Shown: positions 2,723 through 37,570 of the stretch, piece by piece
Layout of the letters: each line of letters starts with the position of its first letter
Numbering within the stretch: position 1 is the stretch's first letter
Origin: Haloplanus salinarum
GTDB taxonomy: Archaea > Halobacteriota > Halobacteria > Halobacteriales > Haloferacaceae
Direction of reading: 5' to 3'
Length of the DNA: 64,000 nt
Assembly (NCBI RefSeq): GCF_024498175.1
Contig: NZ_CP101823.1
Coordinates: forward strand, 2,548,987 to 2,612,986
Position numbers and translations under genes: made by a program
The notes under the pieces: generated by a model
Seen by the model: the letters and a program-made list of their open reading frames with translations, nothing else
Databases searched by the model: none
Told to the model about the DNA's origin: nothing

Positions 2723-3982
<1,260 letters not shown>

Positions 3983-20355: not shown

Positions 20356-20709
20356 ATGGGCATCATGAGCAAGATCCTCGGCGGGGGCGAGAGTCACAGC
20401 ACCGAGGACTACGTCGAACTGAGCCTCGACGACTTCGACACGGCGCGAGCCGAAGCGGGGATGAGCGTCCACTTCGCGGAGATCAGCGAACAGCGCGACG
20501 CGATGGCGATCAAGGACGCCGTCTACGACGGCGACCTCGTCGTCGCGGACATCACGCGGATGAGCCCGAGCGACAGCGTGGTCGACCGGGTGCTGGAGGA
20601 CCTCCGGCAGGTCGCCCGCGAGGTCGACGGCGACGTGGTCGTCAAGGAGGACGACCAAGTGGTCGTCACGCCGACCGGTGTGAAGATCAGCCGCGAGAAG
20701 CTCTCCTGA
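20356..20709 (+). CDS. sepF: Archaeal SepF cell-division protein
   Basis: A 117-residue protein that anchors FtsZ to the membrane in archaea. The N-terminal MGIMSKILGG is the expected amphipathic membrane-targeting helix. After a short linker (GESHSTEDYVEL) the SepF core follows, with VHFAEISEQRDAMAIKDAVYDGDLVVADI and a C-terminal DDQVVVTPTGVKISREKL. ATG 20356 is used; ATG 20365 would remove part of the membrane-targeting helix. The stop codon TGA (20707-20709) forms the first bases of a large nested palindrome, so the end of its mRNA is likely structured. The gene stands alone before uvrA. Confidence 0.93.
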   Translation: MGIMSKILGGGESHSTEDYVELSLDDFDTARAEAGMSVHFAEISEQRDAMAIKDAVYDGDLVVADITRMSPSDSVVDRVLEDLRQVAREVDGDVVVKEDDQVVVTPTGVKISREKLS

Positions 20710-20787
20710 TACTGCCGGCTGTAAGTCGATCAAGAGCTGCGCCACCCCCGAGTGGCGCAGCTCTTGAAACAGTTACAGCCGATAGTA
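20707..20787 (+). repeat. Nested palindrome element, copy 1, starting at the sepF stop codon
   Basis: Outer arms TACTGCCGGCTGTAA (20710-20724) and TTACAGCCGATAGTA (20773-20787) match at 13 of 15 positions. Inside lies a perfect 15-bp stem, CAAGAGCTGCGCCAC (20731-20745) with GTGGCGCAGCTCTTG (20752-20766), loop CCCCGA. Spacers are GTCGAT and AAACAG. The same layout with the same outer boxes (GTAAGTC, AAACAGTTACA, ACTATGACG-like end) but a different inner stem occurs at 35981-36064. In the sense of sepF the element begins with the stop codon itself. It could act as a 3'-end RNA structure or be a miniature mobile element. Confidence 0.85.
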
Positions 20788-20906
20788 TGACGGGAGGTCC
20801 GTCCACCGGCCGGGGACGCCCGGACGCCGGCTGACGATCCTGCCGCCCCCGTCGCGACCGCCGGAACCGACAGGGTTTCGGCGGTCCGGCCCCCAGTCGC
20901 GCGTAG

Positions 20907-35908: not shown

Positions 35909-35980
35909 AGCCGTACTAGCCGCTCGGCGGGACAAATACTCGGCGGTCCGGGTCGTCGCGGCGAGCGCCCGGGCGTCGTC

Positions 35981-36064
35981 ATAGTGTTTATTGTAACTGT
36001 TTACCGGTGGTTCGCCGGGACGGGTCGGCGAACCACCGGCAATGACTTACGATAATCACTATCA
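35981..36064 (-). repeat. Nested palindrome element, copy 2, starting at the mqo stop codon
   Basis: Outer arms ATAGTGTTTATTGTAA (35981-35996) and TTACGATAATCACTAT (36047-36062) match at 14 of 16 positions. The inner stem CCGGTGGTTCGCCG (36004-36017) and CGGCGAACCACCGG (36026-36039) is perfect, loop GGACGGGT. Read in the sense of the gene (minus strand) it runs TGATAGTG... GTAAGTC ... AAACAGTTACA ... ACTATGACG, the same boxes and order as the element after sepF, while the inner stem is unrelated. The mqo stop TGA (36064-36062) is its first triplet. Confidence 0.85.
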
Positions 36065-37456
36065 GTCGTCGGCGGCGGGGACGCCGGCGGGGTCGGTGCC
36101 GGTCGACTCGTCGCCCTCGGTCCCGCGGGGGAAGTTGTCGATGGTGTCCGCGCGGAACGCCGCCTCGTCGAACTCGTAGTCCGCGTCGAGGAAGTCGAGC
36201 ACCGTCCGCGTGTCACGCATGGCGTTTTTCAGACACGTCGAGGCGCCCGGCGAGGGCGTGATGTTGAAGACGATGTCGTCGCCGACGATCTTCGCCTCGC
36301 CCATGTCGAGGGACTTCGCCGAGGTATCGACGATCTGTGGACGGACACCCCCGTACCCCTTCGCGCGCTCGATGTCGTCGAGGTCGACGTCCGGGACGAC
36401 CTTCCGGACGTGCGGGAGGAACTGCCGGCGCCCCACCTCGGGGAGGTCGTACACGAGGTTCCGCAGGACGTAGGGGAGGAGGACCCGATCGGAGAGGATG
36501 TTGGCGTAGCTGAGCGCCGCGGCGGCGTTCAGCCCGAACACGTCGAGGAAGTCGGTCACCGTCGAGAGGCGGCCGCGTTCGAGCGCGGGCACGAGCTTCG
36601 CGGTCGGCCCGAAGCGCGTGATGCTCGAATCGTGGACGTCGGCGTCGCCGTGGACGGCCGCGAAGGGGAGTTTCTTCATCTGCAGGGTGTATACCTTCCC
36701 GTTCAGGAGGTCGTCCGCGAGGAAGAAGCTCCCGGCGACGGGGAGCAACACCTTGTCCTGGCCGTAGCCGAGTTCCTTCGCGATCTGGAGGCTGTGACAG
36801 CCGGCGGCGACGACGGCCGCCGAACAGTCGAAGCGGCCGTCCTCGGTCTCGATCGTGTAGCCGTCGAGCGTCGGCGTGACGTCCGTGACCGCGGTCCCCG
36901 TGTAGACGTCGACGTGTGGCTCGTCGTCCGCGCGGTCGACGAAGGACTTCGCCGTCTCGCCGTAGTCGACGACGTAGCCGTCGGGGGTCTGGAGCGCCAG
37001 GAGTTCGGTCTCGGGATCCCGCCCCTCGACGACAGCGGGTTCGATCTCCGCGATCTCCTCGCGCTCGATCGGCCGCAGTTTGGGGAAGAGGTCGCCGAAC
37101 CCCTCCTCGTCGTAGCGGCGTTCGAGCTTTGACACCTCCTCGTCGCCGACCGCGAGCACCATCTTGCTCCGCTTTGCGTGCATCTCGCGGTCCGCGTCGT
37201 GGTGCTCCAGGTAGCCAGCGAGGAGTTCCGCCCCCTCCTTTACCTCCTCCGCCTTCTCTAAGGTGTAGTTCGTCTCGATGTCGCCGAAGTGGAGGGTCTG
37301 GGAGTTGTTCGTGTGATGTGAGTTGATGGCCGCGATCTCCGACTCCTTCTCGATCAACGCGATCGAGTCGATGTCGGTGAACTTCGCGGTGGTGTAGAGG
37401 AGCGATGCGCCGCTGATACCGCCGCCGACGATGACCAGATCGTACGTACCAGACAT
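36062..37456 (-). CDS. mqo: Malate:quinone oxidoreductase-type FAD enzyme
   Basis: A 464-residue membrane-associated flavoprotein oxidising malate to oxaloacetate with electrons to menaquinone. FAD binding is by LVIVGGGISGASLLY at residues 7-21. The family signatures NSHHTNNSQTLHFGDIETNYT, AAGCHSLQIAKELGYG, FLPVAGSFF-like LPVAGSFFLADDLLNGKVYTLQ and the C-terminal ITPSPGASTCLKNAM are present (parts given). L-2-hydroxyglutarate oxidase is a relative but lacks this combination. Together with icd it gives two TCA steps in the window. Its 3' end carries a nested palindrome beginning with the stop codon. Confidence 0.85.
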   Translation of the reverse strand: MSGTYDLVIVGGGISGASLLYTTAKFTDIDSIALIEKESEIAAINSHHTNNSQTLHFGDIETNYTLEKAEEVKEGAELLAGYLEHHDADREMHAKRSKMVLAVGDEEVSKLERRYDEEGFGDLFPKLRPIEREEIAEIEPAVVEGRDPETELLALQTPDGYVVDYGETAKSFVDRADDEPHVDVYTGTAVTDVTPTLDGYTIETEDGRFDCSAAVVAAGCHSLQIAKELGYGQDKVLLPVAGSFFLADDLLNGKVYTLQMKKLPFAAVHGDADVHDSSITRFGPTAKLVPALERGRLSTVTDFLDVFGLNAAAALSYANILSDRVLLPYVLRNLVYDLPEVGRRQFLPHVRKVVPDVDLDDIERAKGYGGVRPQIVDTSAKSLDMGEAKIVGDDIVFNITPSPGASTCLKNAMRDTRTVLDFLDADYEFDEAAFRADTIDNFPRGTEGDESTGTDPAGVPAADD

Positions 37457-37570
37457 AGTTGCCCCGTGGTAGCTACGTCCACGACTGCGCTCCAGCCTCA
37501 TAACTCATTTTTTCTCCGTCTCGTTATCGACAATTAACGAAGCAGCTTCTCGACGGGAGACGGCGGCGGC

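Follow-up and report, generated by a model that had tools for sequence, protein, structure and literature searches.

The sepF gene and an Mqo-like FAD-dependent oxidoreductase gene of Haloplanus salinarum each end in a nested palindrome that starts at the stop codon, raising the question of what such hairpins are and how they came to lie there. The first-pass annotation of the window, the 64,000-nucleotide stretch of DNA analysed here, had proposed either an RNA module that acts in stability or termination at the 3' UTR or a miniature mobile element that inserts at stop codons, and had read conserved ends around unrelated inner stems as a sign of selection on structure.

The window contains two nested palindromes, at 20707-20790 on the plus strand and 35979-36064 on the minus strand, with the 3-bp flanks counted in (Table 1). 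Both had been located previously, with ends that fell 2-3 bp short. The box pair GTAAGTC ... AAACAGTTAC occurred twice in the window at the element spacing, as compared to none in 100 dinucleotide shuffles, and the box AAACAGTTACA was found 14 times in the 3.45-Mb genome, as compared to 0 for its reversed control. With their strongly negative fold z-scores, the palindromes are thus real structures, and their boxes are not a chance pair. The start points of the two copies coincide exactly with the stop codons of sepF and the Mqo-like gene, as had been stated. However, the TGA itself lies outside the palindrome, and is one of the two direct repeats (TGA...TGA) around the element. The inner stems at the two sites are indeed unlike, because the copies belong to separate subfamilies, type B at sepF and type A at mqo. 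Between the sepF element and uvrA, at 20863-20906, a block GGAACCGACAGGGTTTC..CGGTC is kept in the sister sepF-uvrA loci, including the element-free ones, and is perhaps a uvrA promoter or operator.

Table 1. Features of the two element loci, in positions of the window
Feature	Position	Strand	Basis or detail
sepF, 114 aa from MSKIL, stop codon = insertion site	20365-20709	+	PF04472; ORF
Left target duplication TGA = sepF stop codon	20707-20709	+	TGA/TGA flanks; element-free sister sepF genes end at the same TGA
Type B element, 78 bp	20710-20787	+	Covariance model 81.3 bits; fold z -10.8
Type B outer arms	20710-20724 / 20773-20787	+	
Type B boxes	GTCGA 20725-20729, AACAG 20768-20772	+	
Type B inner arms	20730-20745 / 20752-20767	+	Loop 20746-20751
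Right target duplication TGA	20788-20790	+	TGA/TGA flanks
Second target duplication copy, TGA on minus strand	35979-35981	-	Flanks; sister genomes G010, G006/G001
Type A element, 80 bp, perfect inner stem	35982-36061	-	Covariance model 93.5 bits; fold z -9.2
Type A outer arms	36047-36061 / 35982-35996	-	Boxes GTCAT and AACAG
Target duplication copy = stop codon of Mqo-like gene (TGA on minus strand)	36062-36064	-	
Mqo-like FAD-dependent oxidoreductase gene, host of second copy	36062-37501	-	PF01266, PF06039; ORF

A covariance-model search and a comparison of orthologous loci, both suggested with the first-pass annotation, placed the two palindromes in a family. The search gave about 94 distinct places in this genome, where the family numbers about 95 copies, a count that leaves out a third subfamily described below, and matches in 11 of the 11 sister species searched, in very unequal numbers. 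Further copies are scattered elsewhere in Halobacteria, and in many other genera the model found none. The aligned copies from this genome and other haloarchaeal species have a fixed register, namely TSA, a 15-bp outer arm starting from TA[C/G]NG, GTCNN, inner arm, loop, inner arm, AACAG, outer arm and TSA. They accordingly follow a nested hairpin plan, composed of a 15-bp outer stem, a conserved 5x5 mismatch GTCNN/AACAG and an inner stem of about 15 bp, to which type A adds an inverted TTTACCGG box. Covariation in the alignment of copies is strong, with 90% of the cells paired, two-sided changes in 20 of the 30 pairs and a covariation score of 0.449; shuffles scored 0.148, and slid controls no more than 0.105.

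The third subfamily (L251, L252, L253; own genome near 26 kb, 132 kb and 535 kb) combines unrelated stems (TAGGGGTTATCGTAACTGTCCATAGGTTCTCGCC...) with the same boxes and TCA flanks. A longer relative with a larger centre (TSATACTGATTAGTGCAAGTCTTTACCGCC ...; L312-L316 around position 3000, L182) is present in at least five copies in G016 and seems to be a further MITE of this kind. The segment C1:1190000-1610000 of the own genome, which holds many PF01609 transposase matches and several non-stop element copies, may be a recently acquired region.

The elements are mobile and duplicate 3 bp of their target. Identical TSA flanks surround 67 of the 95 copies (40 with TGA and 27 with TCA), and in the first cross-species set each of the 38 clear copies has the same middle base in its two TSA flanks. 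At the end of the mqo-like gene, G006 reads GACGAT-TGA-element-TGA-CTCGGCG and G001 reads GACGAT-TGA-CTCGGCG with the same flanks, which is a base-exact empty site. The G000 and G006 elements at this stop have opposite orientations, and the mqo-like gene of the close relative G010 ends without an element (L292); on this comparison of sequences, the two insertions therefore look independent. The sepF stop carries type B in G000, reversed type A in G003 and a diverged hairpin in G008, which may be a third insertion there, while the remaining sister sepF genes have an empty site or a TAG end. The elements are short (78-80 bp), lack a transposase gene and are bounded by 15-bp outer terminal inverted repeats; together with the dispersed copies, the TSA duplications and the empty site, these are the properties of a MITE. 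The proposed miniature mobile element is thereby borne out, as it also is by insertion sequences (IS) with similar ends.

In a search of genomes with few copies, single ends found in G004 led to such an IS, of 1154 bp, with TSA duplications and the ends TACGGTCGTGCGAAAG and TACGGTCGTGCGTTAAATTTTACCGGT. Its IS630-type transposase is split over two overlapping ORFs (L301-L303), which suggests programmed frameshifting. The DDE_3 assignment lies above the cut-off (PF13358, E 2e-33), and NF033545 is the best match for both ORFs, with 96 and 89 bits; each falls short of the cut-off of 100, since the transposase is split in two. In its transposase, this partner IS resembles known IS630/Tc1-mariner elements, such as ISY100 and ISNpe3, and its terminal repeats are in the MITE register. 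On the other hand, the classical target duplication of IS630 is TA (PMC2170065), whereas 16 of 17 copies of the partner IS have TSA/TSA. It was therefore filed as a divergent IS630-related subgroup rather than a standard member; TA-type relatives were also seen here. The main subgroup further differs in having 51-56 residues from the second D to the E, instead of the 34 found in the TA-type and in a second lineage, and the split transposase and the gene-free window elements are likewise unlike the known elements.

Related elements, about 1128 bp long, were found in G004, G001, Halorubrum, Halovenus, Natribaculum and others. Their ends are TAGTG, their TSA duplications are mostly intact, and their box TTTACCGG is in register with that of type A. 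The second IS lineage (Natribaculum L436, with a TSA duplication; G039 L368) has TACTG ends, in which 17-21 of 33 positions are like those of the sepF type B copy. The G015 MITE has its ends in common with the autonomous G004 IS (24/31 and 24/32 positions matching), and both duplicate TSA; the ends of the window's own subfamilies are similar to those of the IS, not identical. The right end of the mqo element matches the Halorubrum IS at 25/33 positions. Overall, the resemblance between the window elements and the IS ends is moderate, with 17/25 inner positions for the best pair, whereas the highest value among 54 background sites is 14.

No recognisable DDE_3 (IS630) transposase was found in this genome, though eight element copies are identical; the enzyme that mobilised them was lost, arrived on another replicon or escaped recognition. 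Viral contigs, plasmids and Natrialbales genomes yielded no IS with exact TGTAA-type outer ends. In this genome, all exact matches to lone TSATACNG...GTAA ends lie within short copies (matches with one mismatch were listed in part). A PF01609 IS was rejected as the parent, as none of the 15 examined among the 18 matches in this genome has TSA-TAC ends. From the similar ends and the common duplication, we infer that a TSA-type IS630 transposase moved these particular subfamilies, presumably through the cut-and-paste mechanism of other IS630 members.

According to a home-made, codon-usage-based gene caller, a gene stop is exactly one of the duplicates in 70 of the 95 copies, and a recheck of the remaining ones suggested up to three more. 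The expected share, estimated from the window's non-coding TSA sites together with its stops, is 14-33%; 30 of the 65 predicted genes there end in TGA. Other genomes gave a comparable picture, with 32/46 copies at stops. The excess was observed in codirectional gaps (40/46 copies at the stop, against 85/363 in the background) and in convergent gaps (30/40 against 50/107). Where the duplicates are unequal, the stop-side copy is the conserved one, as it should be if the other is dispensable, and the non-stop duplicate is preferentially decayed.

When the distance to the nearest other copy is taken as age, the share at stops rises from 3/8 among identical copies, a small sample of young ones, to 15/27 at distances up to 3 and 48/54 at distances of 3-15 (young versus old, p = 0.001). 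An integration complex that reads the stop context (for example GAC-TGA-G) or a feature of the transcript 3' end could also concentrate copies at stops, in which case the bias would reflect targeting rather than survival. The share at distances up to 3 already exceeds the 26% expected (p = 0.0015), the excess persists in the convergent gaps, which are free of promoters, and the sepF and mqo-like stops have each been struck more than once in the genus. However, the low share among identical copies and its climb with age speak against active aiming. Moreover, among 17 copies of the full-length IS relatives, whose ends are similar and which likewise duplicate TSA, 8 are in genes, 8 are intergenic and 1 is at a stop, so the enzyme as such seems not to favour stops. 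Given both the rise with age and the full-length relatives without a stop preference, the bias looks mostly like survival. We therefore regard active aiming as unlikely, although some direct preference for stop contexts is possible. Just as unlikely, in our estimate, is a true stop-codon preference in which the TSA duplication evolved as a device for harmless landing and some long-resident hairpins were adopted as host 3'-end signals. The earlier suggestion of an element that inserts at stop codons thus describes correctly where most copies reside, but not, as it seems, where the enzyme prefers to insert.

Taken together, these results make it very probable that the hairpins form a MITE family with IS630-type ends, inserted in trans by a TSA-duplicating transposase of the IS630 family (DDE_3), and that they persist at stops mainly through the restoration of the stop by the duplication. 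The enzyme would belong to the haloarchaeal IS630 subgroup whose 3-bp target is TSA, preferably as C-TSA-G, and which duplicates it. The IS630-type ends consist of the TA[C/G]NG outer repeat, followed in fixed register by the asymmetric left/right box, with the inverted TTTACCGG in addition in type A. Landing on a TGA stop, the element would have the stop remade by the duplication and leave the protein unchanged, so that a stop-codon copy would be, in effect, a neutral 3'-end hairpin. Copies in genes or near promoters would tend to disappear, and stop-codon copies would consequently build up with age.

An alternative is that the hairpins, whatever their origin, are 3'-end RNA modules selected in the host genes for stability or termination. 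The exact position at gene ends, the very stable folds, the covariation across lineages and the long persistence at stops are all compatible with such a role. However, as copies diverge from the consensus their mean pairing drops from 0.90 to 0.76, and the private stem states are mostly mismatches, which argues against a maintained RNA function in resident copies. Furthermore, the elements lie in both orientations relative to the host gene (41 to 29), the element is missing from most of the orthologous gene ends of sister species, and Rfam has no family that matches at or above the gathering score, giving only sub-threshold matches to miRNA hairpins. An RNA module is thus quite improbable. The compensatory cores between conserved ends, from which selection on structure had been deduced, do covary strongly across lineages, but this looks like a property of mobile source elements. 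Active sources would keep near-perfect pairing, either through selection for mobility or through template-switch correction of the palindrome, and the pairing would erode once the copies are resident.

It is extremely unlikely that the element is REP-like or derived from IS200/IS605 and that a Y1 (HUH) transposase moved it in the form of a single-stranded hairpin: the hairpin does have a conserved internal mismatch, small size and high copy number, and the genome has one Y1 transposase gene, but HUH transposition is not known to leave a target duplication, whereas TSA is duplicated here and the element ends resemble those of DDE_3 elements. The Y1 gene, rejected with any RAYT-like neighbour as the source, lies far from every listed copy, no recurrent gene stands beside the copies, and PATEs, too, lack a target duplication (PMC3119063).

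As a MITE family, the elements resemble those of bacteria and archaea, including Haloquadratum walsbyi (PMC3119063), in being short and gene-free, with IS-related terminal repeats, target duplications and many copies. They are unlike the known MITEs in that nearly the entire element is made up of two nested stems, which carry a conserved, asymmetric mismatch, and in sitting exactly at stop codons remade by the duplication. The SMR elements of H. walsbyi are also about 80-110 bp long and numerous, with prominent inverted terminal repeats; however, they do not duplicate their target, are without known IS relatives and insert into other mobile elements (PMC3119063). The present family is the opposite on all three counts, with TSA duplications, IS relatives and sites mostly at gene ends. 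Within the IS630-Tc1-mariner group, pogo/Fot and Zator likewise have non-TA duplications, but these are eukaryotic, whereas the haloarchaeal group uses TSA. The duplication of Zator is 3 bp long. That of Fot is TAA (PMC7386202). In the open-access library searched, subscription journals and ISfinder being outside the search, we found no paper that brings haloarchaea, IS630 and MITE together, and none that links MITEs with duplicated stop codons.

For a selfish element in a gene-dense genome, a 3-bp duplication that may coincide with a stop codon makes TGA gene ends harmless sites, and the survival filter can be measured on copies that differ in age. The haloarchaeal IS630-related subgroup, with TSA instead of TA and mostly a longer D-E spacing, renders the target choice of Tc1/mariner transposases testable. 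Annotators would otherwise take such hairpins for apparent terminators or regulatory RNAs.
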